The position numbers and the translations under genes were made by a program. The notes under the pieces were generated by a model. It saw only the letters and a list, made by a program, of their open reading frames with translations. It was not told the DNA's origin and ran no database searches. 32,282 bases of DNA. It comes from Pseudomonadota bacterium (GTDB lineage Bacteria; Pseudomonadota; Gammaproteobacteria; Steroidobacterales; Steroidobacteraceae). The DNA is taken from NCBI GenBank assembly GCA_963204795.1, contig CAUJHX010000281.1, positions 1 to 32,282 of the forward strand, written 5' to 3'. Shown one piece after another: positions 1,181 to 28,613 of this stretch; position 1 is the first letter of the stretch; each line of letters starts with the position of its first letter.

Positions 1181-2475
1181 TCCTCGCGCTCAATCACGAC
1201 GGCGACGGGATCGTGAAGGCGGGCAAGACGGCCTTCGTGCCGGGCGCGCTGCCGGGCGAGACCATCCGCTACCGGCGCACACGCCGCCATCGCCAGCACG
1301 ATGAAGCGCAGCTCGTCGAGGTGATCGTACCCGCCGCCGAACGCGTCGTGCCACCTTGTCCGCATTTCGGTGTCTGCGGAGGCTGTGCGCTCCAGCACCT
1401 TGCGCCGGCGGCCCAGCTTGCCGGCAAGGGCGCGGAACTTGCAGACTGCCTCGAGCGCATCGGACGCGTGGCGCCGCGTGAATGGCTCGCGCCGCTTGCG
1501 GGGCCGGCGTGGAACTATCGCCGGCGTGCGCGCCTGAGTGCGCGTTTCGTGAGAAAGAAGGGCCGCTCGCTCGTCGGCTTCCGGGAGCGTGCCGCGCCTT
1601 ACGTCGCGCAGATCGACAGCTGCCGTGTGCTCGCGCCGCCGTTCGATACGCTCGTGACGCCCCTGTCAGCACTCCTCACCCGCCTCTCGATCCGCGAGCG
1701 CATCCCGCAGGTCGAGATTGCCGTGGGCGACGGCGCCAGGGCCGTGATCCTGCGCGTGCTGACCGCGCCGTCGCCCCCGGACCTCGACACCCTGCGCGCA
1801 TTTGGCATGGCTCACGATGTCACGATGTACCTGCAGCCGGGTGGCCTCGACACGGTGGCGCCCCTGGACGGTGTGCCCGCGGCGCTCGACTACGCGCTGC
1901 CCGAATTCAATCTGCGTCTCGCCTTCGAGCCGGTCGATTTCATCCAGGTCAACGCAGCCATCAACCAGGCGCTCGTGGCGCGAGCCGCGCGACTGCTCGA
2001 CGCGGGGCCGGGCGATCGCGTGCTCGACCTCTTCTGCGGGCTCGGCAATTTCACCCTGGCGCTGGCACGTGGCGCAGGCCATGTGGTTGGTGTCGAAGCG
2101 GATGCAGGGCTGATCCGGCGCGCGCGGGCGAACGCGCTGCGCAATGACATCGGCAACGCCGAGTTTCATGTCGGTGATTTGGCGGCGTCGGATGTTGCGG
2201 GGAGCAGCTGGTGGGCGGGTGGCTTCTCGCATGTCCTGCTCGACCCACCGCGCGCGGGCGCGCGCGAAGCGCTGCCGGCGATCGCACGCCTCGCGCCGCG
2301 ACGCATCGTCTACATCTCCTGCCACCCGGGGACCTTTGCGCGGGATCTCGGCATTCTCGTTCATGAGCACGGCTATGCCCTGATGGCGGCTGGCGTTCTC
2401 GACATGTTCCCGCAGACGGCCCATGTCGAATCGATGGCGGTACTCGAACCAATCCACGATACTTGCCGGCCATGA
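1156..2475 (+). CDS. rlmD: 23S rRNA (uracil-1939-C5)-methyltransferase RlmD
   Basis: SAM-dependent enzyme that methylates uracil 1939 of 23S rRNA; 439 residues against 433 in E. coli. An N-terminal TRAM domain (about residues 5-60) is followed by the Fe-S cysteines Cys68, Cys74 and Cys77 in CPHFGVCGGC and Cys156 in DSCRVL. The C-terminal Rossmann fold has the SAM motif VLDLFCGLGNFTLALA, the LLDPPRAG motif and the nucleophile motif YISCHPGTFARDL. The open frame extends far upstream to 607, but those residues overlie the exonuclease gene. The ATG at 1156 places the TRAM domain correctly and overlaps the previous gene by 25 bases. Its stop forms an ATGA overlap with nagZ. Confidence 0.95.
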   Translation: MDDFESGVVLALNHDGDGIVKAGKTAFVPGALPGETIRYRRTRRHRQHDEAQLVEVIVPAAERVVPPCPHFGVCGGCALQHLAPAAQLAGKGAELADCLERIGRVAPREWLAPLAGPAWNYRRRARLSARFVRKKGRSLVGFRERAAPYVAQIDSCRVLAPPFDTLVTPLSALLTRLSIRERIPQVEIAVGDGARAVILRVLTAPSPPDLDTLRAFGMAHDVTMYLQPGGLDTVAPLDGVPAALDYALPEFNLRLAFEPVDFIQVNAAINQALVARAARLLDAGPGDRVLDLFCGLGNFTLALARGAGHVVGVEADAGLIRRARANALRNDIGNAEFHVGDLAASDVAGSSWWAGGFSHVLLDPPRAGAREALPAIARLAPRRIVYISCHPGTFARDLGILVHEHGYALMAAGVLDMFPQTAHVESMAVLEPIHDTCRP

Positions 2476-3524
2476 CACTCGGCCCGCTTATGGTCGACCT
2501 CAAAGGCCCCGAGCTCGACGCCGAAGAGCGCGAGATGCTGGCGCACCCGCTCGTCGGCAGTGTCATCCTCTTCACGCGCAACTACGTCGATCCGGCACAG
2601 CTCGAGTACCTGACGACGGCCATTCATGCCGTGCGCCAGCCGGCCCTGGTGGTTGCGGTCGATCAGGAGGGCGGACGGGTGCAGCGCTTTCGCCAGGGCT
2701 TCTCCCGTCTGCCGCCTGTGCATCGCATCGGCCAGGAGTACGATCTCGACAAGGCCCGCGGCCTCGAGCTGGCGCGCGAACTCGGCTGGCTCATGGCGGC
2801 GGAGCTGCGCGCCTGTGGCGTGGATCTCTCGTTTGCCCCGTGCGTGGACCTCGACTACGGCGTGAGCGAGGTGATCGGCGATCGCGCGTTTCACGCGCGT
2901 GCGTCGGCGGTAGCGGAGCTCGCCGTGGCTTACATGCACGGTATGCGTGACGCGGGCATGGCCGCGACGGCCAAGCATTTTCCGGGCCATGGCGCCGTCG
3001 TCGCCGATTCGCACCACGCACTGCCCGTGGACCGTCGCGCACTCGTCGACCTGGAGGATGACCTCGCGCCGTATCGCAGCCTGATCGCCAACCATCTCCC
3101 CGGCGTGATGGTGGCTCATGTGGCGTTTCCCGAGGTCGACGCGCAGCCTGCGAGCCTGTCGGCGCGCTGGATCCGCGGCGTGCTGCGCGAGGAACTGGGT
3201 TTTCGCGGCATCGTGTTCAGCGACGACCTTTCCATGGGGGGCGCGGCGGCCTGCGGCGATATCGTCGCGCGCTCGCACGCGGCGCTCGAGGCAGGTTGCG
3301 ATGTGCTCGCAGTCTGCAACGACAGGCCAGCCGTCACGACCCTGCTCGAGAGGCTGCGCGTCGCTCCCGATCCAGCGATGCACCTGCGGCTGGCGCGGTT
3401 GCGGGGCCGCGAGAGCCTGCCGCAATCCGCCCTGCTCGCATCGGACACGTGGCGCAGGAGCCAGCGGGCGCTCGCGCGCTGCATGGAGCGACCCGCACTG
3501 GAACTGACTGCGGGGCAGGCATGA
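2472..3524 (+). CDS. nagZ: Beta-N-acetylhexosaminidase NagZ
   Basis: Cytoplasmic glycoside hydrolase family 3 enzyme of peptidoglycan recycling. It removes GlcNAc from GlcNAc-1,6-anhydroMurNAc (peptides); in bacteria with an inducible AmpC the products control beta-lactamase expression. The 350 residues form one TIM barrel. Visible signatures are the substrate-binding KHFPGHG (168-174), the flexible catalytic loop DSHH (from Asp179) and SDDLSM (from Ser250) with the Asp nucleophile. Everything needed for activity is present. A TTG at 2463 is in frame, but the ATG at 2472 overlaps the rlmD stop as ATGA and matches family starts (MTLGPLMVDLKG). The stop overlaps the next gene, also as ATGA. Confidence 0.95.
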   Translation: MTLGPLMVDLKGPELDAEEREMLAHPLVGSVILFTRNYVDPAQLEYLTTAIHAVRQPALVVAVDQEGGRVQRFRQGFSRLPPVHRIGQEYDLDKARGLELARELGWLMAAELRACGVDLSFAPCVDLDYGVSEVIGDRAFHARASAVAELAVAYMHGMRDAGMAATAKHFPGHGAVVADSHHALPVDRRALVDLEDDLAPYRSLIANHLPGVMVAHVAFPEVDAQPASLSARWIRGVLREELGFRGIVFSDDLSMGGAAACGDIVARSHAALEAGCDVLAVCNDRPAVTTLLERLRVAPDPAMHLRLARLRGRESLPQSALLASDTWRRSQRALARCMERPALELTAGQA

Positions 3525-4450
3525 AAGACTGGTCGGCGCAGTTCCTGCGCAGCGTGCTCGATGTCGCACCCGAGGGCATCGTCATCTGCGAAGCAGAGGG
3601 TGATCAGCCGGTCGTCTACGTGAACGCGGCGTTCGAGTATCTCACCGGCCACGCGGCGGAAGATCTCCTCGGGCGCAATCTGCGCCACCTCCAGGGCAGC
3701 GATCGCGAGCAGGATGCCCGCTACCGGTTGCAGCAGGCGATCGAGCGCGGCGATTCCTGCCAGGTGCTGCTGCGCAACTACCGCAAGAACGGCGGTGTCT
3801 TCTGGGTCGACATCCAGATGCAGCCGGTGCGCGATCCGGCCGGGCGGGTCACGCATTTCATCGGCTATCACCGTGACGCGAGCGAGCGCCCGCGCACGGC
3901 CGCGAAAGCACTGGCGGGTCTGCCGGGCTGGATGCGTGAAGATCGCCTGACGACACTCACCACGCGCCCGTATTTCGAGGAGTTGCTGAAGCGGGACTGG
4001 GCCCTCGCGCAGCGCGAGATGCGCCAGCTCGGACTCGCGATTTTCGACCTCGACAGCCTGGGTGCCTACAACGACACGTATGGCCGGGCGGGCGGGGATG
4101 CCTGTATCCGCCGCACCGCGAGCCTCATTGCCGCGTCATTCCGTCGCGGCAGCGATCTGCTCGGGCGCTGGGACGGTGGCGGCATCGCGGTGCTCGCACA
4201 CGGCGCAAGCGAGGAGAAGCTCGGCGAGTATGCGCAGATCCTCGTGCAGCGCGTGCGGGACCAGCAGGTCCACCATCCACGCTCGGCCGCGAAGTTCGTG
4301 ACCGTGAGTGTCGGTATCGCGAGCTGCATGCCGATGCGCGATCAGCCGGTCACGCTGCTCGTGAACGCCGCTGAGGCCGCGCTCGGTCGCGCCAAGGCAC
4401 AGGGGCGCAACCGCATCGCCTTTGCCGCGAAAGGCGACTACAAGCCCTGA
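3521..4450 (+). CDS. LOV-like PAS / degenerate GGDEF protein
   Basis: A 309-residue two-domain signalling protein. Residues about 5-120 form a PAS domain of the LOV subtype: GRNLRHLQG (51-59), NYRKNGGVFW (86-95), VRDPAGRVTHFIGY (103-116). The position that holds the flavin-adduct Cys in LOV photoreceptors is Leu54, and the conserved Gln near the end of the domain is His117. Residues about 140-305 are a GGDEF fold: FDLD (175-178), NDTYGRAGGD (184-193), and a C-terminal ALGRAKAQGRNR helix. Its signature reads DGGGI (218-222) instead of GGDEF, so diguanylate cyclase activity is probably lost; a ligand-binding or protein-interaction role is more likely. It has no membrane segment. It is the last gene of the acpS run, coupled to nagZ by ATGA. 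Confidence 0.85.
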   Translation: MKDWSAQFLRSVLDVAPEGIVICEAEGDQPVVYVNAAFEYLTGHAAEDLLGRNLRHLQGSDREQDARYRLQQAIERGDSCQVLLRNYRKNGGVFWVDIQMQPVRDPAGRVTHFIGYHRDASERPRTAAKALAGLPGWMREDRLTTLTTRPYFEELLKRDWALAQREMRQLGLAIFDLDSLGAYNDTYGRAGGDACIRRTASLIAASFRRGSDLLGRWDGGGIAVLAHGASEEKLGEYAQILVQRVRDQQVHHPRSAAKFVTVSVGIASCMPMRDQPVTLLVNAAEAALGRAKAQGRNRIAFAAKGDYKP

Positions 4451-4467: not shown

Positions 4468-5013
4468 TCAGCGCGCTGCGGTCACGATCGCGATCAGGCC
4501 GAAATCGGGGTTGTCGAAATAGTTCTTCTCGCCGAGGCGCACGCGCCTGATCTCGCTGATGGTCGCCCGGCCAAGAGTCACCGAGAAGCCAAGGTGCAGG
4601 TATTGCCCGCGCTCGAGAAAGGCAGTTCCCGCGAGGCCCTCTGCAGAGATGCCAAGACGGGCGAGCGGAAAGCCGCTGCGTGACCCCCAGGGACTGGGCG
4701 TCTGTGACCAGCCGGCATGCGCGAGCGGCCGGTAGGCGCCGCTCGCGCGCAAGCGCTCCACGATGGCACCAAGCTGCAGGCTCGTGGCGGGCATCGGCCC
4801 GATGAGCCGTGCAACACCACCGCCTCCGGCCACATCGGTGCTGTCGCTGCCCCCTGCAGGCCGATCACCCGGGATGCCTTCGGCGTCAGCCGAATTGCCA
4901 CCCGTGCGAAAGACGATCACTTCGATGTTGTAGGCGCCACCTCCCGTTTGCGGGATCGCGGGCGAGGTGAGGAAGGCGAGCAGCAGCGCGAGGCCGGCAG
5001 TCAGAGGTCGCAT
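4468..5013 (-). CDS. csiV: CsiV-family periplasmic protein
   Basis: Exported protein of 181 residues with a signal peptide (MRPLTAGLALLLAFLTSPAIPQ). The mature part starts with the YNIEVIVFR strand typical of the CsiV family and contains LRASGAYRPLAHAGWSQ, matching the family's conserved YRxLxHxxWxQ region. It continues with beta-rich sequence (GQYLHLGFSVTLG, IRRVRLGEKNYFDNPDFGLIAIV). In Shewanella, CsiV is an outer-membrane-associated peptidoglycan-binding partner of the LpoA/PBP1a synthase; whether this distant relative does the same is unknown. A Gly/Ser/Asp-rich, low-complexity stretch at about residues 39-68 separates two conserved parts. The gene follows mfd by 21 bases on the same strand, so it is likely co-transcribed with mfd, as in other gammaproteobacteria. 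Confidence 0.72.
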   Translation of the reverse strand: MRPLTAGLALLLAFLTSPAIPQTGGGAYNIEVIVFRTGGNSADAEGIPGDRPAGGSDSTDVAGGGGVARLIGPMPATSLQLGAIVERLRASGAYRPLAHAGWSQTPSPWGSRSGFPLARLGISAEGLAGTAFLERGQYLHLGFSVTLGRATISEIRRVRLGEKNYFDNPDFGLIAIVTAAR

Positions 5014-8946: not shown

Positions 8947-10191
8947 ATGTTCCACCCGCTGTCTGTCTGGGTGGGCTTGCGCTACGTGCGGGCCCGCAGT
9001 CACAAGTTCTTCGTTTCCTTCATCACCTGGGTGTCGGTCCTCGGCGTTTGCGTCGGCGTCGCCGCGCTCATCGTCATCCTCTCGGTCATGAATGGCTTCG
9101 AGGGCGAGCTGCGCGATCGCCTCCTCGCGCTGTCCGCCCACGCCCGCGTGACACCCGCGCCCGACAGCACCGGCAACCTCGCAAGCCTCGCGGCGAACAT
9201 CATGACCGTCCCCGGTGTTGCGGGCGCGGCGCCGTACGTCGAAGTGCAGGCACTCGCCTTGCACACCCCCGAGATGCTGCCCATCGTGCTGCGCGGAATC
9301 GATCCGGGACTCGAGGAATCGGTGACCGAAGTCGCGCGCTCACTGCGGAGCGGCACCCTCGCGGCGCTCACGCCGGGCAGTAACCACGTGATCCTGGGCT
9401 CGGTCGTTGCACAGCGGCTCGGTGTCGGACCGGGGGATGAGGTCACTTTGCTCGTGCCGTCGATCGGCGCAAATGGCACGCCCGAGCCGCGGCTGCGGCA
9501 ATTCACCGTCACAGGAGTCTTCGAGGTTGGCCTGCAGGACCATGACGGCGTGCTGATGCTCGCCTCGCTCGCCGACGTGCGGGCCGTACTGCCGGAGGGC
9601 AGCCGCGCCGGCGCCGTACACGTGCGTTTCGACGACGCGCTCGCGGCGCCCGCGCGTGCCACAAGCCTGCGCGCTGCGCTGGCACCCGGCACGCAGGTGC
9701 GCGACTGGACGCAGGATCACGCCAATTATTTCCGCGCGATCCGCATCGAGAAGACCATGATGTCCCTCATCCTGATGCTGATCGTGGCGGTCGCGGCCTT
9801 CAGCATCGTGGCGATGCTCGTGATGGTCGTGACCGACAAGCGCACCGACATCGCGATCCTGCGTACCTTCGGCGCGGCCTCGCGCCGGGTGATGGGCATC
9901 TTTGCCACGCAGGGGCTCGTCATCGGCTGGTTTGGCGTGCTGGCAGGTGTCGCGCTCGGCATCGCCATTGCCCGCAATGTGACGCCCATCGTCGCGCTCC
10001 TCGAACGGGTGTTCGGCTTCCAGATCATGGACGCGGATGTCTACTACATCACGCGTATCCCCTCCATCCTCGACTGGCGTCAGGTTGCGTGGACGGGCGG
10101 CGCGGCATTCGTGCTGACCGCGCTCGCCACCGTCTATCCCGCGCTGCGCGCCGCGCGCGTCGCGCCCGCCGAAGCGTTGCGCTACGAGTAG
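8947..10191 (+). CDS. Lipoprotein-releasing ABC permease, LolC/LolE family (first copy)
   Basis: Inner-membrane subunit of the LolCDE transporter, which extracts mature lipoproteins from the inner membrane and passes them to LolA. Length is 414 residues. One N-terminal membrane helix follows FISFITW-like sequence (FVSFITWVSVLGVCVGVAAL, residues about 22-41), with the family motif [17 protein letters not shown] after it. A periplasmic MacB-like domain is followed by three C-terminal helices with the coupling motif TDIAILRTFGA and the ending VAPAEALRYE. The ATG at 8947 starts the conserved N-terminus; an ATG at 8935 (MPCIMFHPL) is also in frame, and neither has a good ribosome-binding site. LolC and LolE cannot be told apart confidently by eye, so no symbol is given. 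Confidence 0.9.
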   Translation: MFHPLSVWVGLRYVRARSHKFFVSFITWVSVLGVCVGVAALIVILSVMNGFEGELRDRLLALSAHARVTPAPDSTGNLASLAANIMTVPGVAGAAPYVEVQALALHTPEMLPIVLRGIDPGLEESVTEVARSLRSGTLAALTPGSNHVILGSVVAQRLGVGPGDEVTLLVPSIGANGTPEPRLRQFTVTGVFEVGLQDHDGVLMLASLADVRAVLPEGSRAGAVHVRFDDALAAPARATSLRAALAPGTQVRDWTQDHANYFRAIRIEKTMMSLILMLIVAVAAFSIVAMLVMVVTDKRTDIAILRTFGAASRRVMGIFATQGLVIGWFGVLAGVALGIAIARNVTPIVALLERVFGFQIMDADVYYITRIPSILDWRQVAWTGGAAFVLTALATVYPALRAARVAPAEALRYE

Positions 10192-10194
10192 CCG

Positions 10195-11442
10195 GTGACA
10201 CGTTTCTACGAATGGTGGATCGGCACCCGCTATCTCGGATCGACGCACCGGCGGGGCTTCGTGTCGATCGTTGCGCTGATCTCGGTGATGGGCCTCATGC
10301 TCGGCGTCGCGGTGCTGATCGTGGTGCTCTCGGTGATGAACGGCTTCGAGCGCGAGCTGCGCACGCGCATCCTCGCGGTGACCGCGCACGCGACCCTGAC
10401 GGGCCTCGAGGGGACCCTGGATGACTGGCGCGGCGCGCGCGCGGTCGCGCTGCGCACGCACGGCGTGCGCGCGGCGGTGCCCTACATCGAGTCGCAGTCG
10501 ATGCTCGTGCGGGGCGAGGCAATAGCCGGCGCCCAGGTGCGCGGCATCGAACCCGCCGAGGAACGCAAGGCGGACAGCCTTGCCGAGCGGATGCGCGCGG
10601 GCACGCTCGCATCGCTCACGCCTGGCAGCTGGCACATCGTGCTGGGCGATGCGCTCGCCGGGGAACTCGGTGCGACGGTCGGTACCAGCGTGGTGCTGAT
10701 TGCGCCGGAGGGCGCTGCGACGCCGACAGGCGTGATGCCGCGCATGCGTCGCTTCACCGTGAGCGGCATCTTCAGCTCCGGCATGTACGAATACGACCGC
10801 GGGCTCGCGCTCGTGAATCTCCATGATGCGGCACGCCTCTACCGTACCGGCGACCGGGTGACGGGTCTGCGCCTCGAGCTCGACGAGCCTTACGCAGCGC
10901 CGCGCATCGTGCGCGAAGTCGCGCTCGCGCTGGGCGGCGGCTTCTACGTGAGCGACTGGACGCGCAACCACGCGAACTTCTTCCGCTCGATCGAAATCAC
11001 CAAGTCGCTGATGTTCGTGATCCTCCTGATGATCGTCGGGGTCGCGGCGTTCAATATCGTCGCGACACTCGTGATGATCGTGAAGGACAAGCAGCCGGAC
11101 ATCGCGATCCTGCGCACGCTCGGGGCGGGCCCGCGCAATGTGCTCGCGGCCTTCGTGATCCAGGGTGTGCTGATCGGACTTGCGGGCACCGCGCTCGGCG
11201 CAGGCCTCGGTATCCTCACTTCGCGTCATCTCGAGTCGCTGGTACGCATGCTCGAGCGCGTGCTCGGCACGCAGTTTCTCGATGCGAGGGTCTATTACAT
11301 GAGCGACCTGCCGGCATTCGTCGAATGGCGGGATGTGGCACAGGTGTGCGGTGTCGCGTTCGTGCTGTGTGCTGTCGCGACGCTCTATCCTGCGTGGCGC
11401 GCCGCGCGGACCGCACCAGCCGAGGCCTTGAGACATGAGTGA
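10195..11442 (+). CDS. Lipoprotein-releasing ABC permease, LolC/LolE family (second copy)
   Basis: Second LolC/LolE-type permease, 415 residues, starting at GTG three bases after the first copy ends. It repeats the same plan: a helix in [20 protein letters not shown], then [17 protein letters not shown], a periplasmic domain (residues about 50-265), three C-terminal helices, [17 protein letters not shown] and the ending [10 protein letters not shown]. The two permeases clearly arose by duplication and presumably form a LolC-LolE heterodimer with LolD, unlike bacteria with a single LolF. The stop overlaps the lolD start by 8 bases. Which of the pair contacts LolA (the LolC role) needs an alignment of the periplasmic hook region. 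Confidence 0.9.
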
Positions 11443-12145
11443 TGCAATGAACGAAGCGGTGCTCGAAGCGCGCGGCCTGCGCCGGGAATTCAGGCAGGGG
11501 CCGGTGCTTCTCGAGGTCTTGCGCGGCGTGGATCTGACCGTGACGGCGGGCGAACGCCTCGCGATCATCGGCGCGTCGGGCTCTGGCAAGACGACGCTGC
11601 TGCAGGTGATCGGCGGGCTCGACCGACCCACCTCGGGTGCGGTGCATGTCGCGGGGCGCGACATCCACTACGTGGGCGAACGCGAACGTGGTGAACTGCG
11701 CAACCGCGCGATCGGTTTCGTGTATCAGTTCCATCATCTGCTGCCCGAGTTCTCCGCGCTCGAGAACGTCGCGATGCCGCTGCTCGTCCGCCGGGAGCCC
11801 GTAGCGGTGGCGCGCGCGCGCGCGCAGGCGCTGCTCGAACGTGTCGGTCTCGGGGCGCGCCTTTCGCACCGGCCGCATCAGCTCTCGGGCGGGGAGCGTC
11901 AGCGTGCCGCGGTGGCGCGCGCGCTCGTCACCGGGCCACGGCTCGTGCTGGCCGACGAGCCAACCGGCAACCTCGACGGTGCAAACGCCGAACAGGTCTT
12001 CCAGCTGATGCTCGAGCTGAACCGCGAGCGTGGCACGAGCCTGGTGGTCGTGACCCACGATCCGCGCCTCGCGGCGAGAATGGATCGTGTGTTGACGCTC
12101 GATGCCGGCAAACTCGTCCCGACGCCTCTGGCCCGCAGCCCGTAG
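11435..12145 (+). CDS. lolD: Lipoprotein-releasing system ATPase LolD
   Basis: ATP-binding subunit of the Lol exporter, 236 residues, on the cytoplasmic side of the inner membrane. Walker A is GASGSGKT (46-53). The LolD-characteristic stretch [18 protein letters not shown] follows, then the ABC signature LSGGERQR, Walker [13 protein letters not shown] and the switch His in VVTHD. The gene overlaps the second permease by 8 bases. Its last codons (Ala-Arg-Ser-Pro) already lie in the GCAGCCC-type heptad repeat that fills the following intergenic gap, suggesting the repeat has reached into the 3' end of the gene. An in-frame ATG at 11447 is a possible later start. Confidence 0.96.
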
Positions 12146-12198
12146 CGCACAGCCCGCAGCCCGACGCCCGCAGCCCGACGCCCGCAGCCCGCAGCGCG
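12131..12198. repeat. Heptad repeat tract at lolD 3' end
   Basis: Tandem seven-base units (GCAGCCC alternating with GACGCCC; complement GGGCTGC/GGGCGTC). The 14-mer gcagcccgacgccc occurs twice exactly at 12156-12183 and is followed by a partial copy. The tract starts inside the last codons of lolD and fills most of the gap to the convergent DUF2062 gene. The same heptad on the other strand follows kdsB at 19647. Confidence 0.8.
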
Positions 12199-12213
12199 CC
12201 GCTCCGCTGTCAA

Positions 12214-12237
12214 GGCGCCTTTCTGGCGAAAGGTGTC
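12214..12237. terminator. Bidirectional hairpin between lolD and DUF2062 gene
   Basis: A 10-bp imperfect stem (ggcgcctttc / gaaaggtgtc, with two G-T wobble pairs) closes a TGGC loop. It lies between two convergent genes, four bases past the DUF2062 stop. There is no U tract on either side, so intrinsic termination is plausible but unproven. Confidence 0.45.
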
Positions 12238-12240
12238 ACG

Positions 12241-12759
12241 TTACCGCCTCGCCCCCCACGCGCGCGTGCGATATCTCCTGCGCACGTTGTAGCGCCAGAA
12301 GAGCTCGAGCAGTCCCCAGCCGAGTACGCCGGCAACGATCGAGCAGACGAGGCAACCGATGAGGAACGGCTTCCAGATCGGCCCGAGGCCAAATTGCAGC
12401 CATGACCACGACAGCTCGAAGCGAAAGGGTTGAGGCACGTGGCCGAGCAGTGCAGCGCCCACGCGGTAAGCGAAGTAGTACACCGGCACGAACGTGAACG
12501 GATTCACGAGCAATACTGTAGCCACCATGACCGGCACGTTGATCCGCATCACGATCGCGACGATGGCCGCGAGCACGAGGTGCACCGGCAACGGAACGAA
12601 GCAGATGGCGAGGCCGGCTCCGAACGCGGCAGTGACGCCCCGGCGCTGCAGGGACCACAGCGCCGGATCGGCGATGCGCGTGCCGAAGGGTCGCAGATAC
12701 CAGTGGCTGCGTATCTGTTCTGGCGAGGGCGTGAACCTGCGGATGAGATGGCGCGGCAT
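12241..12759 (-). CDS. DUF2062 domain membrane protein
   Basis: Inner-membrane protein of 172 residues and unknown biochemical role. It begins MPRHLIRRFTPSPEQIRSHW, a typical DUF2062 start. It continues with LWSLQRRGVTAAFGAGLAIC and the hydrophobic hairpin FVPLPVHLVLAAIVAIVMRI, then the family hallmark NPFTFVPVYYFAYRVGAALL, and ends with a further helix (FLIGCLVCSIVAGVLGWGLL) and a basic tail. The frame is open up to 12795, but a start there would overlap the divergent comEC start; ATG 12759 fits the family. A DUF2062 gene lies between lolC and comEC in Pseudomonas too, so the position is conserved, although here it is transcribed against both neighbours. Only 34 bases separate it from comEC. 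Confidence 0.85.
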   Translation of the reverse strand: MPRHLIRRFTPSPEQIRSHWYLRPFGTRIADPALWSLQRRGVTAAFGAGLAICFVPLPVHLVLAAIVAIVMRINVPVMVATVLLVNPFTFVPVYYFAYRVGAALLGHVPQPFRFELSWSWLQFGLGPIWKPFLIGCLVCSIVAGVLGWGLLELFWRYNVRRRYRTRAWGARR

Positions 12760-12793
12760 GCGACGACTGCACTGTAGCAGGGCAGCGTGAGCC

Positions 12794-14845
12794 ATGACAC
12801 TTGCGACCGCGCTCGCCTTCCTCTGTGGCGCACTGCTTGCATTTGCGCCCGTTCAGCCCTATGGGGCCTTCGCCGGGATGGTGACGCTTGCAGTAGCGAG
12901 CGGCGCGGCCTTTGCGTGGAGTCGCGACTGCACGCGTGCCGCCTCGATGGCAGCGGCGCTGCTGACGGGCTTCGCCTGCGCCGCGGTGCACACGTCGGCC
13001 GCGATGGCTGCGCGCTGGCCGGTCACGCGCGACGGTGAGCGCGTGCTCGTCGAGGCACGTATCCTCACCATTCCCGTCGCGGGGGAATTCGGCACGACTT
13101 TCGATGCAGCCCTCGTGATCGACCCGCGCGCAGGTGGCGCGCCGCTCGCAGCCCGGCTCGTCTGGGCGCATCCATACCCGGCTCCGCAGGTCGGGGAAAT
13201 CTGGCGGCTCGTCGTGCGGCTACGGGCGCCGCGCGGCGCGCTCAATCCGGTCGGTCCTGACATGGAGCGGGTGTGGTTTCGCGAAGGCATCGATGCACTC
13301 GGGAGCGTCTTGCCCTGGACTGCGCTCAACGCCCGACTCGAGGAGGGAACTGCGCCGCTCGATCGCCTGCGGGCACGGATCGCGCGACACATTGCGGCGA
13401 CCGTACCCGACCGTGACGCAGCCGCGCTGCTGGCTGCGCTCGCCGTCGGGGTCACGGGCGAACTCGCGCGCGAGCAGTGGCGCGTGTTCAATGCCACGGG
13501 CACGACGCATCTCGTCGCGATCTCCGGAATGCATGTCACGCTCTTTGCGGTGCTCGCGATCGCCGCTGCGCGCCGGATATGGCCTCTGGCAGGGCGCCTG
13601 CACGAGTGGCTGTCGCGCGAGTCTTTCGCGGCCGTGCTCGGCATCGCGGCGGCCTTCGGTTATGCATTGCTCGCCGGCCTTTCGGTACCGACCCGGCGCA
13701 CTCTCGTCATGTTGATCGCGTGGCGGCTCGCCTGCGCAGGCGCGCGGGCGCAGGGTCTGCTGCAGGCCTTTGCCATCGCAATCGTGGTCGTGATCGTGCT
13801 CGATCCGTTTGCCCCGCTCGCGAGCGGCTTCTGGCTGTCGTTCGTGGCTGTCGCGGCAATCATGGTGACCGCCGGGGCCCGCATCGGTCGCACGCACTGG
13901 TGGCAGGAGGCGACGCAGGTGCAGCTTGCCGTCACGATCGCACTTGTACCGGTCACCCTCGCGGCATTCGGTACGGTCTCGCTCGCGAGCCTCGTGGTCA
14001 ACGTCTTCGCCATTCCGCTCTTCACGTTGCTGCTCGTGCCGCTGACGCTCGCTTCAACGGCCATCCTCGCCGTCGCCCCGTCGATCGCCGACATCGGCTT
14101 CGCGGCAGGTGCCCGGTTGTATGCGCTCGCCTGGCCGTGGCTCGAGGCAGCGGCAGCGTGGCCGCAAGCGCTCGTGACACTGTCACCGCCTCTCTGGGTC
14201 TGGCTCGTCATGGTGCCGGCAGTGGGCATTGCGATCCTTCCCTGGCCAGGCCGCCTGCGTGCCACAGCCATGGCCGCACTCATACCGCTCCTTGGCGCGG
14301 GACCAATTGCGCCCGCGCCCTCGCAGGTCGCCATCATGGTGTTCGACGTCGGGCGCGGGCAGGCGGCCGTGATCCGCACGCGGCGCGAAGTCATCGTTTT
14401 CGGGACCGGCGACAGCTTCGGCACGAATGGCCGGCGCATGGCGCGCGTCGTCGTACCCTGGCTGCGCTCGCAGCACATCACGCGGGTCGATCGCCTCGTC
14501 ATGCCGCATCTTCGTGGGGATCATGCGAGCGGGGCCGCCGAACTCGTCGCAGCGATCGCGGTCGAAGAAATTCTCGTGCCGCGCCCGTGGCCGGGCGGAC
14601 CGGAGCACGTCGCGCTGTGCGCGGACACCAGCGCGTGGACCAGCGGGCCGGCCCGGTTCACGATGACGGCAGACTGCGACCTGTCACTCTCGATCGGGCC
14701 CCGGCAATTCGCATTCGCTCGCCCCGCACGCTTCGATACCGCGCGTGGCGGTGCAATCAGCCTCATGATCGACGCTGCAAGCGGGGACATGGTGCAGTGG
14801 GCCGCCCGCGACGGCTATCCATGGCCGTGGCGCGCTCCGGTATGA
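12794..14845 (+). CDS. comEC: ComEC/Rec2-type DNA uptake channel with decayed MBL domain
   Basis: Polytopic membrane protein of 683 residues related to the channel that passes transforming single-stranded DNA across the inner membrane. The order is an N-terminal hydrophobic region, a DUF4131 OB-like domain (about 60-200), and the competence domain with the hallmark GTTHLVAISGMHVTLFAV followed by about eight helices (to about 510). The C-terminal metallo-beta-lactamase part is abnormal: DVGRGQ (518-523) for DVGQG, GTG (537-539) where the family has DTG, and HLRGDH (572-577) where HxDxDH is expected. The later motifs (NxxSCVL, LLTGDIE, the PHHGS-like His) are missing. Family members are usually 100 or so residues longer. 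The channel may still work, but the nuclease-like activity is probably gone. Confidence 0.85.
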   Translation: MTLATALAFLCGALLAFAPVQPYGAFAGMVTLAVASGAAFAWSRDCTRAASMAAALLTGFACAAVHTSAAMAARWPVTRDGERVLVEARILTIPVAGEFGTTFDAALVIDPRAGGAPLAARLVWAHPYPAPQVGEIWRLVVRLRAPRGALNPVGPDMERVWFREGIDALGSVLPWTALNARLEEGTAPLDRLRARIARHIAATVPDRDAAALLAALAVGVTGELAREQWRVFNATGTTHLVAISGMHVTLFAVLAIAAARRIWPLAGRLHEWLSRESFAAVLGIAAAFGYALLAGLSVPTRRTLVMLIAWRLACAGARAQGLLQAFAIAIVVVIVLDPFAPLASGFWLSFVAVAAIMVTAGARIGRTHWWQEATQVQLAVTIALVPVTLAAFGTVSLASLVVNVFAIPLFTLLLVPLTLASTAILAVAPSIADIGFAAGARLYALAWPWLEAAAAWPQALVTLSPPLWVWLVMVPAVGIAILPWPGRLRATAMAALIPLLGAGPIAPAPSQVAIMVFDVGRGQAAVIRTRREVIVFGTGDSFGTNGRRMARVVVPWLRSQHITRVDRLVMPHLRGDHASGAAELVAAIAVEEILVPRPWPGGPEHVALCADTSAWTSGPARFTMTADCDLSLSIGPRQFAFARPARFDTARGGAISLMIDAASGDMVQWAARDGYPWPWRAPV

Positions 14846-14880
14846 TGCGCACGGTTTGCACAGCTTCGAGGGCAGGACGG

Positions 14881-15510
14881 ATGTGGGAAATCGTGCGCGC
14901 GGGCGGGCCACTGATGTGGCCGATCATCCTGTGTTCCATAGGCGCCGCGGCGATCATCCTCGAGCGATTCTGGACCCTGCAGGACAAACGGGTGATCCCC
15001 CCCGATCTCACGAAGAAGGTCTGGGCGCTCATCGAGGGCAACCAGATCAACGACAAGGTCATCGCGGCGCTCGAGCAGAACTCGCCTCTCGGCCGGGTGC
15101 TCGCTGCCGGCCTCGCCAACCGTCACCGGCCCCGTGAAATCATGATGGAGCGCCTGCAGGACACCGGGCGCCATGTGGTGCACGAGCTCGAGCGGTTTCT
15201 CAACTCGCTCAACATGATCGCGGGCGTGAGCCCGCTGCTCGGGCTCCTCGGCACGGTGACCGGCATCATCAAGGCGTTCAACGCCATCCAGGCGGGCGGC
15301 ATGGGCGATCCGCGCATGCTGTCGGGCGGCATCGCCGAGGCGCTGATCACGACCGCCGCCGGGCTGACCGTCGCGATTCCATCGCTGATCGGCTTTCGCC
15401 TGCTGCGCGGCAAGGTCGATCGCATCGTGATCCAGATGGAGAAGGACGCGCTGCGCCTCGCTGATGCGGTCGATGCGGCGGCGGGCCGCGATCGGGCGGG
15501 GGCGGCGTGA
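14881..15510 (+). CDS. exbB: MotA/TolQ/ExbB-type proton channel protein
   Basis: Inner-membrane protein of 209 residues that pairs with the ExbD-like protein encoded next to use the proton motive force. Helix 1 is PLMWPIILCSIGAAAIILERFWTL-like sequence (residues 9-32); helices 2 and 3 follow NSLNMIAGVSPLLGLLGTVTG and EALITTAAGLTVAIPSLIGF, the strongly conserved TolQ/ExbB regions. MWEIVRAGG is the usual start in this subfamily. An in-frame ATG at 14842 would overlap the comEC stop and add 13 residues. The same exbB-exbD pair precedes lpxK in Pseudomonas, where no TonB is encoded nearby; the energised partner is not known here either. Confidence 0.88.
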   Translation: MWEIVRAGGPLMWPIILCSIGAAAIILERFWTLQDKRVIPPDLTKKVWALIEGNQINDKVIAALEQNSPLGRVLAAGLANRHRPREIMMERLQDTGRHVVHELERFLNSLNMIAGVSPLLGLLGTVTGIIKAFNAIQAGGMGDPRMLSGGIAEALITTAAGLTVAIPSLIGFRLLRGKVDRIVIQMEKDALRLADAVDAAAGRDRAGAA

Positions 15511-15938
15511 ACCTCAAGCCGCGCCGTACTGATGAGCCCGAGCTCAACCTCACCTCGCTGATCGACGTGGTGCTGCTCCTCATCGTGTTTTTCATGCTCT
15601 CTTCGACTTTCGTGCAGGAGGGGCGCCTGCGGGTGCGCCTGCCCGAGGCGCGCGATGTGCCGGTACAGCGCCCGGCGAAGGAGGCAATCGTCGTGACTGT
15701 CACGCAGGGCGGCGGCTATCGCGTCAACGAGCGCGACCTCGTCAATGCGAGCGCCGCTACGCTGCGCGCGGCGCTGCTCAAGGTCGCGGGCGATGAGCGC
15801 AGCGCGCCTGTGACGCTGCGCGCCGACGGCCGCGCGACCCACCAGTCGGTGGTCACCGCGATGGACGTGCTCGGCAAGCTCGGCTTCACGGAGATCAACA
15901 TCGCGACCGTCAGCGACGCGGGTGCCGCAACGCCGTGA
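15507..15938 (+). CDS. exbD: ExbD/TolR-type biopolymer transport protein
   Basis: A 143-residue protein with a short cytoplasmic N-terminus, one transmembrane helix and a periplasmic domain. The helix sequence LTSLIDVVLLLIVFFMLSST places the essential proton-carrying aspartate at Asp20. The periplasmic part ends with VVTAMDVLGKLGFTEINIAT, typical of the ExbD fold. It starts at GTG in a GTGA overlap with exbB, and its stop overlaps the GTG of msbA in the same way, so the three proteins are probably made in fixed proportion. The position beside msbA and lpxK suggests an envelope or LPS-related energising role, which is inference. Confidence 0.9.
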   Translation: MNLKPRRTDEPELNLTSLIDVVLLLIVFFMLSSTFVQEGRLRVRLPEARDVPVQRPAKEAIVVTVTQGGGYRVNERDLVNASAATLRAALLKVAGDERSAPVTLRADGRATHQSVVTAMDVLGKLGFTEINIATVSDAGAATP

Positions 15939-17692
15939 ACGTACCGGCGGCCCCGACCGTCATCGCCAGTCCCCGGCAGGTCTATCGCCGGCTGCTCGGC
16001 TACGCGCGGCCCTGGATCGGCACCTTCCTGATCGGCGTGCTGGGCATGGCGCTCTTTGCCGCAACCGATGCGCTGCTCGCGTACCTCGTCAAGGTCTTCC
16101 TCGGCGGTGCCTTCGTCGAGCGTGACCCGCGTGTCATCTGGCTCGTGCCACTCGGTGCGGTCGGGCTCTTCTTCCTGCGGGGTGTCGGCGATTATGTGTC
16201 GAATTATTTTCCGGCGTCCGTCGGGCGACGGATCATCAAGACGCTGCGCGGCGAACTGTTCGCGAAATACCTGCGGCTGCCCGTGTCCTGGTTCGATGCG
16301 ACCTCTACGGGGGAGATGCTCTCGCGCCTCACCTTCAATATCGAGCAGGTTGCCGAGGCGACCACCAATGCGGTCACGGTACTGATCCGCGACACGCTCA
16401 CGATCATCGCGCTGCTCGGCTATCTCTTCTGGATGAACTGGCAGCTCGCCGCCTTCGCGCTCGTGCTCGCGCCATTCATTTCGTGGCTGATCCGGCGGAT
16501 CAACAGTTCTTTCAGGCGCTACAGCGCGCGCATCCAGAACTCGATGGCCGATGTCACGCGCGTCGCGAAGGAATCCTTCGATGGCCAGCGCGTCGTGCGG
16601 GTATTCAACGCGCAAGCGCGGCAGGAGGCGGCCTTCGAGGTGGCAAACGAGGCCAATCGCCACAGCAACATGCGCCTCATCAATGCGCGCGCGATGAGCA
16701 ACCCGGTGGTGCAGTTCATCGCGGCGATCGGGCTCGCGGGCGTGCTCTATTTCGCGATCAGCCAGGTGCAGCGTCAGGAGATGCGCGTCGACGACTTCAT
16801 GTCGTTCCTGACGGCGCTGCTGCTGATCACGGCGCCGCTGCGCCGCCTCGTCAACGTGTTCGGGCCGCTGCAGCAGGGGATTGCCGCCGGTGCCAGCGTC
16901 TTCGCCGTACTCGATGCGGCGGGCGAGGACGAAGGCGGTCAGCAGCGGGTGGCCCGGGTGAAAGGCGACATCGAGTACCGCGGCGTGAGTTTCATGTATC
17001 GCGCCGACAAGGGCCAGGTGCTGCGTGACATCGACTTGCGCGTGCCGGCCGGGCGCACGCTCGCGATCGTCGGGCGCTCGGGCAGCGGCAAGTCGACGCT
17101 CGTGGCCCTGTTGCCGCGCTTCTACGATGCCGATGCCGGCAGCGTGCGGCTCGACGGCATCGACGTGCGCGACTATGCGCTCGCGAACCTGCGCGACCAG
17201 GTCGCGGTCGTGAGCCAGGAAGTCGTGCTCTTCAACGACACGATCCGTGCCAATATCGCCTTCGGTCATCCGGATGCCTCGCCCGCGCGGGTCGAAGCGG
17301 CGGCCGAGGCAGCCTTTGTGATGGATTTTGCGCGCGACCTGCCGCAGGGGCTCGATACGCTCGTCGGTGATCGCGGCGCGCTGCTCTCGGGCGGCCAGCG
17401 CCAGCGCATTTCGATCGCGCGCGCAATCCTGAAGGACACGCCCGTGCTGGTGCTCGACGAGGCGACATCGGCGCTCGATACCGAGTCCGAGCGGCACATC
17501 CAGGCGGCACTCGCGCGCCTGCAGTCGGGCCGCACCACCCTCGTGATCGCGCACCGGTTGTCGACCGTGGAGCAGGCCGACGAAATCATCGTCATGGACG
17601 AGGGTGCGATCGTCGAGCGCGGCGCGCACGCCGCGCTGCTCGCGCGCGACGGCGTCTACGCACAGCTGCACCGCCTGCAGTTCAGCGCCTGA
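15935..17692 (+). CDS. msbA: Lipid A export ABC transporter MsbA
   Basis: Half-transporter of 585 residues that flips lipid A-core across the inner membrane as a homodimer. The N-terminal type IV exporter fold has six helices (residues about 20-310), with conserved VSWFDATSTGEMLSRLTFNIEQV-region sequence. The nucleotide-binding domain follows with Walker A GRSGSGKST (380-388), Q-loop VSQEVVLFNDTIRANIAFG, signature LLSGGQRQRISIARA, Walker B VLVLDEATSALD and the switch IAHRLSTVEQAD. All catalytic parts are intact. It starts at a GTG overlapping exbD. Here msbA lies between exbD and lpxK, whereas in E. coli it directly precedes lpxK and in Pseudomonas I recall no msbA at this exact place. Confidence 0.94.
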   Translation: MNVPAAPTVIASPRQVYRRLLGYARPWIGTFLIGVLGMALFAATDALLAYLVKVFLGGAFVERDPRVIWLVPLGAVGLFFLRGVGDYVSNYFPASVGRRIIKTLRGELFAKYLRLPVSWFDATSTGEMLSRLTFNIEQVAEATTNAVTVLIRDTLTIIALLGYLFWMNWQLAAFALVLAPFISWLIRRINSSFRRYSARIQNSMADVTRVAKESFDGQRVVRVFNAQARQEAAFEVANEANRHSNMRLINARAMSNPVVQFIAAIGLAGVLYFAISQVQRQEMRVDDFMSFLTALLLITAPLRRLVNVFGPLQQGIAAGASVFAVLDAAGEDEGGQQRVARVKGDIEYRGVSFMYRADKGQVLRDIDLRVPAGRTLAIVGRSGSGKSTLVALLPRFYDADAGSVRLDGIDVRDYALANLRDQVAVVSQEVVLFNDTIRANIAFGHPDASPARVEAAAEAAFVMDFARDLPQGLDTLVGDRGALLSGGQRQRISIARAILKDTPVLVLDEATSALDTESERHIQAALARLQSGRTTLVIAHRLSTVEQADEIIVMDEGAIVERGAHAALLARDGVYAQLHRLQFSA

Positions 17693-17707
17693 AGCGCCGG
17701 CGCCGCC

Positions 17708-18724
17708 ATGGAGAAATGGCTGAACACGGTCTGGTACGGGCGCGCCTCTGGCGCGGCGCTGCTGCGCCCGCTCTCCTGGCTCTATGCCTTGATCGTCGGC
17801 GCGCGCCGGGGCGCCTATGCGGCGCGTCTCCTGCCGGTCACGAAGCTCGCAACACCCGTGGTCATCGTCGGCAATCTCACGGTGGGCGGCACCGGCAAGA
17901 CGCCCTTCGTCGTCTGGCTCGTCGGGGAACTCGCGGCGATGGGCCGCAGGCCCGGCGTCGTCTCGCGTGGCTACGGGCGACGCGGTGACGCGCCGCGACT
18001 CGTCGAAGCCGGTTCCCGGGCAGCCGAGGTCGGAGATGAGCCGTTGCTGCTGCGCCGACGCACCGGTTGTCCCGTTGCGGTCGGTCGCGAGCGCGCCGTC
18101 GCGGGGCGGCTCCTCGCGACGCAGAATGTCGATGTCGTCATCGCCGACGACGGGCTGCAACACCTGGCACTCGCGCGCGATTGCGAACTCGTGCTGATCG
18201 ATGGCGCGCGCGGCTTCGGCAATGGGTTGATGCTGCCCGCAGGCCCGCTGCGGGAGCGCGCCGGGCGCCTGCGCACGGTCGATGCGGTGATCATTCTCGA
18301 CGGCTCGCGCGAGCGCAGCCTCGCCGGGCGGCCTGTGTTTCACATGCGGTTCGAGGCGGCGGGCGTGCTGCCGCTCACCGGGCCGCGCGAGGCTGCGCTG
18401 CCGCTCGCGAGCCTGGCGGGGCAGCGGGTGCACGCCGTGGCCGGCATCGGCAATCCGGAACGATTCTTCCGCCTGCTGCGGGCCGCCGGCCTCGACGTGA
18501 TTCCGCACCCATTCCCCGATCACCACGCCTTTACGGCCGCTGACCTCGCCTTCGAAGACGGTCTGCCGGTCCTCATGACGGAGAAAGATGCCGTAAAATG
18601 CGCGCCGTTCGCGTCGTCGCGACTGGGATACGTGCCCGTCACCGCCGCGTTCAGCGACGACGATGCGCGCGCGCTGCTCGCGATCGTTACGGCAAGGATC
18701 GATCCGGCCCGAACCGGCCGCTGA
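17708..18724 (+). CDS. lpxK: Tetraacyldisaccharide 4'-kinase LpxK
   Basis: Inner-membrane-associated kinase of lipid A synthesis that phosphorylates the 4' position of tetraacyldisaccharide-1-phosphate to give lipid IVA. The 338 residues match family length. A membrane-anchoring N-terminal helix (about 16-35) precedes VVIVGNLTVGGTGKTPFVVW, whose P-loop GGTGKTP lies near residue 60. SRGYGRRG, GDEPLLLRRRTGCPVAVGR, VIADDGLQHLALARD and the C-terminal LMTEKDAVKC are the other conserved blocks. It begins at ATG 17708, 15 bases after msbA. The next gene starts 8 bases beyond its stop, with the ribosome-binding site overlapping the stop region. Confidence 0.95.
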   Translation: MEKWLNTVWYGRASGAALLRPLSWLYALIVGARRGAYAARLLPVTKLATPVVIVGNLTVGGTGKTPFVVWLVGELAAMGRRPGVVSRGYGRRGDAPRLVEAGSRAAEVGDEPLLLRRRTGCPVAVGRERAVAGRLLATQNVDVVIADDGLQHLALARDCELVLIDGARGFGNGLMLPAGPLRERAGRLRTVDAVIILDGSRERSLAGRPVFHMRFEAAGVLPLTGPREAALPLASLAGQRVHAVAGIGNPERFFRLLRAAGLDVIPHPFPDHHAFTAADLAFEDGLPVLMTEKDAVKCAPFASSRLGYVPVTAAFSDDDARALLAIVTARIDPARTGR

Positions 18725-18732
18725 GGAACCAC

Positions 18733-18921
18733 GTGGATACGCGACTGCTCGACATCATCGCCTGCCCGCTCTGCAAGGGGCCGGTGGTTCACCAGCGCGA
18801 GGAGGCAGTACTTGTCTGCCGCATCGACCGGCTCGCTTATCCGATCCGCGACGGCGTGCCGATCATGCTCGTGGAAGAGGCACGGCAACTTGCGGCGAGC
18901 GATCCGCTGCTCGAGCGCTGA
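18733..18921 (+). CDS. Trm112 family (UPF0434/YcaR-like) small zinc protein
   Basis: A 62-residue protein collinear with E. coli YcaR. It starts at GTG (MDTRLLDIIACPLCKGPV) after a GAGGA ribosome-binding site overlapping the lpxK stop. Cys11, Cys14 and Cys29 match the CPxC...C pattern of the Trm112 zinc-ribbon family, and LAYPIRDGVPIML is the other conserved block. Eukaryotic Trm112 activates methyltransferases; the bacterial proteins lack a settled function. Placement between lpxK and kdsB is conserved in gammaproteobacteria. Confidence 0.92.
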   Translation: MDTRLLDIIACPLCKGPVVHQREEAVLVCRIDRLAYPIRDGVPIMLVEEARQLAASDPLLER

Positions 18922-18935
18922 GGGGGCCCGCGCGC

Positions 18936-19646
18936 ATGTTCCGCATCATCATCCCCGCGCGCTACGAGTCGACACGTTTCCCCGGCAAGCCGCTGGCCCT
19001 GATCAGCGGCCGGCCGATGATCGTGTGCGTCTACGAGCGGGCGCGTGCCACGAGCGCGCGCGAAGTCATCGTGGCGACCGACGACGAACGGATTGCCGCC
19101 GCAGCACGCCTCGCGGGCGCCGACGTGTGCATGACAGCGGATTCACACGCCTCCGGCACGGATCGCATCGCGGAGGTCGCGCGTCTGCGCCGGTTTGGCG
19201 CGGATGACATCGTCGTCAACCTGCAGGGCGATGAGCCTCGCATGCCGGCGGCCCTCATCGAGCAGGCGGCTGCGGCGCTTGCCGCGCACCCGTCCGCGGC
19301 CATCGCGACCGTTGCATCGCCGCTCGGCTCGCACGCGGAATTTGTCGATCCGAATGTCGTCAAGGTGGTGACTGATCGCGGGGGCAGGGCGCTCTATTTC
19401 AGCCGCGCGCCGATTCCGCATGATCGTGATGGCACGGGCCACGAGGCGCTGCGTCACATCGGGCTCTACGCGTGGCGTACGCGCGCGTTGCTGCAATTCG
19501 CGTCTCTGGCGCCCACACGACTCGAGTCGCTCGAAAAGCTCGAGCAGCTGCGCGCGCTCGAGCACGGCATGGAGGTTCGTGTGGTCGCGGCCGCGGAGCC
19601 GCCGGGTGCGGATATCAATACGCCGGAGGATCTGGCGCGGCTTTGA
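18936..19646 (+). CDS. kdsB: 3-deoxy-manno-octulosonate cytidylyltransferase KdsB
   Basis: Activates Kdo with CTP to CMP-Kdo, the donor for the first inner-core LPS sugars; cytoplasmic, 236 residues (E. coli 248). The N-terminal nucleotide-binding loop IIIPARYESTRFPGKPLA, VIVATDDERI, NLQGDEPRMP with the catalytic region, YFSRAPIPHDRDG and HIGLYAWRTRALLQF are all present. The family's INTPEDL close to the C-terminus is also intact, so the enzyme should be functional. ATG 18936 is 14 bases after the Trm112-like gene. An AGGGGG sequence just past the previous stop can act as ribosome-binding site. A heptad repeat tract follows its stop directly. Confidence 0.96.
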   Translation: MFRIIIPARYESTRFPGKPLALISGRPMIVCVYERARATSAREVIVATDDERIAAAARLAGADVCMTADSHASGTDRIAEVARLRRFGADDIVVNLQGDEPRMPAALIEQAAAALAAHPSAAIATVASPLGSHAEFVDPNVVKVVTDRGGRALYFSRAPIPHDRDGTGHEALRHIGLYAWRTRALLQFASLAPTRLESLEKLEQLRALEHGMEVRVVAAAEPPGADINTPEDLARL

Positions 19647-23237: not shown

Positions 23238-24449
23238 ATGCCATTCACGATCGCACTCAGCGGACTCAATGCCGCATCGGCCGATCTTGCTGTTACCGCG
23301 AACAACATCGCAAACGGCTCGACCTCGGGCTTCAAGAGCTCGCGCACCGAATTCGCCGACCTTTTCGCCGTCACGCCCTTCGGGGTTTCGAGCACCGCGA
23401 CCGGCAACGGCGTGAAAGTCGCGTCGGTGGCCCAGCAGTTCACGCAGGGCAACATCGATTTCACCGACAGCAACCTCGATCTGGCGCTCTCGGGCGATGG
23501 CTTCTTCACGCTGAGTGATGCGGGCTCGCTCGCGTACTCGCGTGCGGGGGCTTTCAAGGTCGACAACCAGGGCTATGTGGTGAGCGGGACGGGCGCGAGG
23601 CTGCAGGTGTTTCCGCCACTGCCGAACGGTGGCTTCAATACCGGTGGCCTCGCGGATCTGCGGCTCATGACCAACGAGAGCGCACCGCAGGCAACCTCCA
23701 CTATCGACATGACGCTGAACCTGCCTGCCGATGCGACGGCGCCGGTGACGGCTTTCGACCCCGCCGATGCGTCGAGCTACAACCGCCAGACCTCGATGAC
23801 CGTGTATGACTCGCTGGGCGCCGCGCACACGACCAGCTTCTACTTCGTCAAGGGTGCGCTCGCCAATGAATGGACCGTGCAGGCCTATACCGACGGCACC
23901 GCCGTGGGTACGCCGCAGGTGCTGACCTTCAACAGCAGCGGCGCGCTCGTCACCCCCGCCGCGGGCACGATCGCCTTCCCGCCGTACACGCCGGCGACCG
24001 GTGCCGCCCCGCTCGCACTGACGCTCGATGTCGCGGGCGCAACCCAGTACGGCAGCGGCTTCGGCGTGCAATTCACGCAGGACGGATTCACGACAGGCGC
24101 GCTTTCCGGGATCGACGTGGATCCAACGGGAGTCGTGAGCGCTCGCTACACCAACGGCCGCTCGATTCCGCTGGGTCAGGTGGCGATCACGAACTTTGCG
24201 AACGTGCAGGGCCTGCAGAAGCTCGGGGACACGCAGTGGGGCGAGACCTTCACTTCGGGCGGGGCCCAGCGCGGTACGGCCGGCAGCTCGGGCTACGGCC
24301 AGATCCAGTCGGGCGCGCTCGAGGCGTCGAACGTCGAGATCACGCAGCAGCTGGTCAACATGATCATCGCGCAGCGCAACTTCCAGGCAAACGCGCAGAT
24401 GATCTCGACGGCCGACCAGATCACGCAGACGATCATCAACATCCGCTGA
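23238..24449 (+). CDS. flgE: Flagellar hook protein FlgE
   Basis: Structural subunit of the hook, 403 residues, close to the 402 of Salmonella FlgE. The N-terminus (ALSGLNAASADLAVTANNIA then STSGFKSSRTEFADLF) and the C-terminus (SGALEASNVEITQQLVNMI then AQRNFQANAQMISTADQITQ) form the core coiled-coil D0 domain. Between them lie the D1 and D2 beta domains, with SLAYSRAGAFKVDNQGYVV and the SMTVYDSLGAAHTTSFYF block. AGGAG lies 10 bases upstream of the ATG. The stop and the flgF start share one base (TGATG). Confidence 0.96.
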   Translation: MPFTIALSGLNAASADLAVTANNIANGSTSGFKSSRTEFADLFAVTPFGVSSTATGNGVKVASVAQQFTQGNIDFTDSNLDLALSGDGFFTLSDAGSLAYSRAGAFKVDNQGYVVSGTGARLQVFPPLPNGGFNTGGLADLRLMTNESAPQATSTIDMTLNLPADATAPVTAFDPADASSYNRQTSMTVYDSLGAAHTTSFYFVKGALANEWTVQAYTDGTAVGTPQVLTFNSSGALVTPAAGTIAFPPYTPATGAAPLALTLDVAGATQYGSGFGVQFTQDGFTTGALSGIDVDPTGVVSARYTNGRSIPLGQVAITNFANVQGLQKLGDTQWGETFTSGGAQRGTAGSSGYGQIQSGALEASNVEITQQLVNMIIAQRNFQANAQMISTADQITQTIINIR

Positions 24450-25186
24450 TGGACAAGTACCTCTATGTGGCGATGTCCGGCGCGAAGGAGACCCTGCGCG
24501 CACAGGCCGTCAACAGCCACAACCTCGCGAACGCCAGCACGACTGGCTTTCGTGCCGACCTCGCCGCCTTCCAGACGCGCGCGGTCGACGGCACCGGCTT
24601 CGCCTCGCGCGCCTACGCGACAAACGCCACGATCGGTTGGGACACGACGACGGGCGCGCTGCTCTCCACCGGGCGCGACCTCGATGTCGCGGTGAACGGT
24701 GAGGGCTGGATCGCAGTGCAGTCCGCCGATGGGAGCGAGGCCTACACGCGCGCGGGCGACCTGCGCGTCGACACGAGCGGCACGCTGCGCAATGGCGCGG
24801 GCGATATCGTGCTCGGCGACGGCGGACCTGTCACCGTGCCGCAGAGCAATTCGGTGCTGGTCGGTGCCGATGGATCCGTATCGATCGTGCCGCTCGGGCA
24901 GGGCCCCGAGACGACCGCGGTGATCGGGCGGATCAAGCTCGTCAAGCCGCCGGTGGACAGCCTCGAGCGCGGCGTCGACGGACTCTTTCGCATGAAGGAC
25001 GGCAGTCAGGCACCCGCCGATGCGTCCGTCCAGCTCGCCTCGGGCGTGCTCGAGTCGAGCAACGTCAATGCGGCCGGTGCGATGGTCGAGATGATCGAGC
25101 TCGCGCGCCGCTTCGAACTGCAGGTCAAGGCCATACGCACCGCGGAGGAGGACGGCGCCACCGCCGCCCGCCTGCTGCGCGTGTAA
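24449..25186 (+). CDS. flgF: Flagellar proximal rod protein FlgF
   Basis: Rod protein of 245 residues. The N-terminus [19 protein letters not shown] is diagnostic for FlgF, followed by [20 protein letters not shown]. The middle domain has [20 protein letters not shown] and [11 protein letters not shown]. The C-terminal helix [20 protein letters not shown] is the shared rod signature. The frame is open far upstream over flgE; the ATG at 24449, overlapping the flgE stop, is the start consistent with the family. flgG follows after 13 bases. Confidence 0.96.
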
Positions 25187-25199
25187 CGGAGGATATCTC

Positions 25200-25985: not shown

Positions 25986-25990
25986 TCACC

Positions 25991-26662: not shown

Positions 26663-26664
26663 CC

Positions 26665-28607: not shown

Positions 28608-28613
28608 TCCACC

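Follow-up and report, generated by a model that had tools for sequence, protein, structure and literature searches.

LadC is a LOV-activated diguanylate cyclase in which a LOV domain with an adduct Cys and a late Gln is joined by a coiled-coil linker to a GGDEF domain with a GGEEF A-site and an RGSD I-site, and this I-site helps to form a contact with the LOV dimer in the dark state (PDB 8c05; PMC12805367). GGDEF domains bind c-di-GMP through the I-site (PMC3974145, PMC3509222), whose RxxD motif is carried by 44-57% of them (PMC3974145), and among the PopA/SgmT-type receptors with degenerate GGDEF domains, SgmT has a GGGVF A-site and an RHPD I-site through which c-di-GMP is bound (PMC3509222). 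LOV domains without the standard residues are also described. Cys-less LOV domains, for which Yee et al. list Ala, His and Pro as replacements, can signal through flavin photoreduction, and in VVD without its Cys a Gln to Leu change blocked dimerisation (PMC4682037), while LOV domains in which the late Gln is replaced, with His among the residues seen, are likewise able to signal (PMC9098866).

Within the window, the 32,282-nucleotide stretch of DNA analysed here, a gene overlapping the end of nagZ has the same domain order and the same RGSD I-site as LadC, which is its best full-length match by sequence (E 2.5e-50) and by fold; however, the Cys, Gln, GGEEF motif and coiled-coil linker of LadC are all lost or altered. 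It resembles SgmT and PopA in combining a degenerate A-site (DGGGI) with an intact RxxD, but SgmT has GAF, kinase and receiver domains, whereas here the input differs, there is no output domain and c-di-GMP binding is a prediction; SgmT is the nearest functional model. RmcA shares a LOV-like PAS domain without the adduct Cys (PASd) in a c-di-GMP protein, but is a phosphodiesterase (PMC8846402), while here the output appears non-catalytic and the Gln is lost as well. The Leu at the Cys position is not one of the residues named by Yee et al., and the His at the late Gln position is as in the Gln-less receptors, although the Gln-less LOV-GGDEF protein that was tested is a working cyclase (PMC9098866), unlike what the residues here suggest.

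The coordinates and residues given for this gene in a preliminary description all proved correct when the letters were read directly and aligned. Orthologs were gathered within the genus, family and order, giving 55 family rows and 90 rows for the degenerate clade (~56 effective at 70% identity, with a few near-duplicates among them). K332 and R390 are residues in PleD numbering. The features are as follows:

2463-3524, forward strand: nagZ (beta-N-acetylhexosaminidase; NF003740, 440 bits, cut-off 207), with its stop within ATGA
3521-4450, forward strand: LOV-like PAS plus degenerate GGDEF gene, 309 amino acids
3569-3886, forward strand: PAS/LOV-like domain, residues 17-122 (Pfam PAS_9 E 1e-17; PpSB1-LOV E 4.5e-31)
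3680-3682, forward strand: Leu54 at the adduct Cys position (Leu in 51/55 family rows, Cys in 0/55)
3806-3808, forward strand: Val96 at the flavin-contact Asn of FWN (Asn in 37/55 family rows, Val in 6/55)
3869-3871, forward strand: His117 at the late Gln position (His in 46/55 family rows)
3887-3940, forward strand: short linker with a helix-breaking GLP (residues 133-135) in place of a LadC-type coiled coil
3941-4414, forward strand: degenerate GGDEF domain, residues 141-298 (PF00990 E 3e-30, 105.6 bits, cut-off 23.8)
4061-4063, forward strand: Gly181 at the phosphate-binding Lys (PleD K332) of the FK..ND motif, by alignment
4145-4156, forward strand: intact I-site R209-G-S-D212 (RxxD in 88/90 clade rows; identical RGSD in LadC 8c05)
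4172-4186, forward strand: DGGGI (D218-GGG-I222) at the GGEEF A-site (GG(D/E)EF in 0/90 clade rows)
4250-4252, forward strand: Arg244, candidate third c-di-GMP-contacting Arg (PleD R390), by alignment only (Arg/Lys in 79/90 clade rows)
4468-5013, reverse strand: csiV-like gene, a conserved convergent neighbour (PF10972 E 3e-13)

The gene start was chosen from the ATGA at 3521-3524 (forward strand), where the ATG sits within the nagZ stop, and this overlap is conserved in relatives. Residue-by-residue alignment with LadC (8c05) and PpSB1-LOV (3sw1) confirmed that Leu54, His117 and DGGGI occupy the Cys, Gln and GGEEF positions, and placed Gly181 at the phosphate Lys. Both halves are without their textbook chemistry, as had been proposed. 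The Leu54, His117 and DGGGI substitutions are not due to chance, because the same ones recur in orthologs at 82-90% identity within the genus and at 40-58% across most of the family; close orthologs with a Cys and an intact GGDEF motif were looked for among these sequences and none was found. Within the genus, dN/dS was 0.08-0.16 for the gene and 0.03-0.13 for its LOV-like half, compared with 0.11-0.12 for nagZ. Since these values are low and similar to those of nagZ, decay is excluded; the gene is intact and under purifying selection, and its coupling to nagZ, also noted in the preliminary description, is seen in most relatives. A recent mutation or a pseudogene is ruled out by the orthologs together with dN/dS. 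An AF2 model built from a 16-row alignment was confident in the GGDEF half and of low confidence in the LOV half (pLDDT about 50). Using Foldseek, the best match to this model was LadC, followed by the PAS-GGDEF-EAL protein PA0861 and the GGDEF structures of WspR and DgcB, which the modelled GGDEF fold matches.

An active diguanylate cyclase carries GG(D/E)EF and the phosphate Lys, and this protein has neither. Position 181 over the 90 clade rows is Gly in 39, Asp in 29 and Ala in 7, with Lys not among the residues listed, and the A-site columns rank 84th to 109th in conservation of the 162 GGDEF-domain columns, with the final one 55th. Guanine-contact residues N184 and D193 and phosphate residues K292 and R296 persist here, and GTP might still bind weakly. 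In a GGDEF-domain tree computed without the signature columns, all degenerate rows lay on one side of one branch (SH-aLRT 99), with the canonical LOV-diguanylate cyclases L071, L073 and L075 of the same order on the other side, together with all remaining rows. By this tree the degenerate family has one origin. Its losses are ancient and order-wide, since the family spans the order and keeps its genomic slot. A sparse class-wide sample of 369 genomes had degenerate nagZ-linked members in this order only. L071, L073 and L075 have the Cys and GG(D/E)EF, and nagZ was not matched in the stretches retrieved for them.

The I-site, which the preliminary description had overlooked, lies ten residues upstream of the A-site glycines. 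R209 is invariant in all 90 clade rows and D212 is present in 88, the two other rows being RxxE from one gene fetched twice, and these columns rank 4th and 6th, respectively, of the 162. The motif is dispensable for the fold, since 44-57% of GGDEF domains generally, and 6 of the 10 other readable GGDEF domains in the same genome, have it. Canonical rows from the same homology search are also RxxD-rich (28/30); the ancestor therefore had RxxD, and the comparison is one of retention and not of gain. Furthermore, Tyr183, Arg165 and Pro253 are fixed and His251 nearly fixed specifically in the clade, which makes a remodelled surface on these proteins likely. Two features of an I-site receptor, namely a GGDEF fold with a degenerate A-site and an intact RxxD, are found here.

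We consider that the protein is probably, at somewhat better than even chances, a cytosolic receptor for c-di-GMP, non-catalytic and of the PopA/SgmT type, which derives from a LOV-activated diguanylate cyclase like LadC. The ancestor would have been a light-switched enzyme making c-di-GMP, which lost its light-reactive residue and active site and kept its c-di-GMP site, and a receptor of the signal is for this reason more likely than a maker. This reading is favoured because GG(D/E)EF is absent throughout the clade and the phosphate Lys is gone while the fold-dispensable RxxD is retained; because the I-site persists even in families whose PAS domain has lost the LOV motifs; because the gene is constrained much as nagZ is, in a genome with a c-di-GMP system; and because SgmT is a precedent for c-di-GMP bound via the I-site beside a degenerate A-site. 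That system comprises 16 GGDEF, 11 EAL and 2 PilZ matches, which makes it likely that this cell both produces and uses c-di-GMP. The nucleotide would reach the I-site (R209, D212 and probably R244) from the other cyclases of the cell. The LOV-like domain would add a second input, most likely through the redox state of a flavin or its photoreduction to the neutral semiquinone, or alternatively through simple ligand-modulated dimerisation. Acting together, the two inputs would determine the conformation or the state of dimerisation, and a partner protein may sense this by direct contact.

The LOV-like half has neither of the residues that mark a LOV photoreceptor, the adduct Cys being replaced by Leu54 and the late Gln by His117, substitutions shared by most family rows. 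Most FMN contacts are preserved within the family by alignment, which makes flavin binding plausible there, and this Cys-less, Gln-less sensor is probably a flavin/redox sensor in the family. Within the genus the other contacts (N53, R55, Q58, R62, R67 and N86) are present and the FWN Asn is Val96, a change specific to the genus, whose rows are the six with Val; because of it, a flavin role in the genus is uncertain. The LOV motifs are lost from the PAS domain, and the I-site is kept, in several more families of the order. The redox or flavin function put forward in the preliminary description is therefore not established: the pocket is largely intact in the family, has lost one further Asn in the genus and is gone in other families that keep the gene. 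By length and sequence, a LadC-style coiled-coil linker between sensor and effector is absent, and since the linker is 19 amino acids with a conserved GLP here versus 29 amino acids in the canonical L071, L073, L075 and L108 (a comparison of length and sequence only), the protein probably does not work by the coiled-coil mechanism of LadC. A GLP.W motif is conserved in this linker (3887-3940, forward strand) in many family members.

The main rival to the receptor reading, which we judge unlikely but worth keeping in view, is that RxxD forms a structural or protein-contact surface and that the GGDEF domain is a docking module in a flavin/redox or light switch. The receptor reading is weakened by the fact that in LadC the inhibitory interface between LOV and GGDEF includes the I-site region (PMC12805367), so that RxxD could serve protein contact; in addition, the LOV-like half has the lowest dN/dS within the genus, and flavin photoreduction can drive signalling in Cys-less LOV domains (PMC4682037). 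However, LadC needed the architecture and not particular residues, whereas in this clade these very Arg and Asp residues hardly vary, even without a LOV-like PAS, and with the shortened GLP linker the LadC interface is unlikely to persist.

Less probable again is a FimX-like sensor that would take up GTP in its degenerate GGDEF domain, leave it uncyclised and report on the guanine-nucleotide state of the cell. FimX is a precedent for GTP sensing by a degenerate GGDEF domain (PMC8846402), N184, D193, K292 and R296 are present, and the purine salvage genes hpt and mtnP adjoin the gene in other families, but the metal-binding Glu and phosphate Lys are gone and, unlike the I-site, the positions for guanine and phosphate contact vary across the clade (N 49/90, K 42/90, R 25/90). 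A still-active cyclase with an unusual A-site is very improbable: some degenerate A-sites, AGDEF and SGDEF, are active (PMC3974145), but these retain the metal-binding acid and the next Glu, both of which are Gly here, and Lys is changed to Gly too in all sampled genus members, and on these residues we reject it. That the gene is decaying and simply carried along in the nagZ operon is barely credible; both signature chemistries are gone, but dN/dS is nagZ-like, the frame is open in nearly all relatives and the slot is fixed across the order.

This slot has the order rlmD-nagZ-[hpt-mtnP]-gene-csiV-mfd. The family repeatedly shows rlmD-nagZ-gene-csiV-mfd, most members having start and stop codons overlapped as xTGA, and several other families of the order have nagZ-hpt-mtnP-gene-csiV-mfd. 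The place between nagZ and csiV is therefore old and fixed, and nagZ is not an obligate neighbour. A dedicated NagZ partner is unsupported, and the peptidoglycan-recycling link suggested earlier is weak, given that hpt and mtnP intervene in other families, although the nagZ-csiV slot is old. We hold as unlikely the more ambitious proposal that a dual-input receptor, with c-di-GMP at the I-site and flavin redox in the Cys-less LOV domain, contacts cell-wall recycling or septal functions on the NagZ or CsiV side and couples c-di-GMP to peptidoglycan turnover order-wide. For the motility link that had also been suggested, we found no evidence beyond flagellar genes on the same contig (flgF, flgG, flgI, flgK and flgL, 23238-31696, forward strand, NCBIfam), ~19 kb from the gene. 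A cell-envelope block with a lolCE-type permease, a TolQ/ExbB-like domain, msbA, lpxK and kdsB occupies 9100-19646 on the forward strand.

A literature search by titles and abstracts, combining nagZ and GGDEF, found no description of this family in those texts. The locus represents a natural, order-wide case of a light-switched signalling enzyme apparently turned receptor, in which catalysis, photochemistry and linker are lost or altered and the product-binding site is fixed. Because the order still contains canonical LadC-type relatives, this conversion is open to comparison and to ligand-binding study, and a concrete candidate c-di-GMP receptor can be named for Steroidobacteraceae and relatives. 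The LOV Cys occurs in one of the 90 clade rows, L036, which has GQNCRFLQ, a degenerate DAETF A-site and RxxD; its retrieved stretch gave no match to nagZ. Members L035, L088 and L089 of family f14 have Pro at the Cys position, their retrieved stretches likewise gave no match to nagZ, and L088 is preceded by a HutI-like gene.
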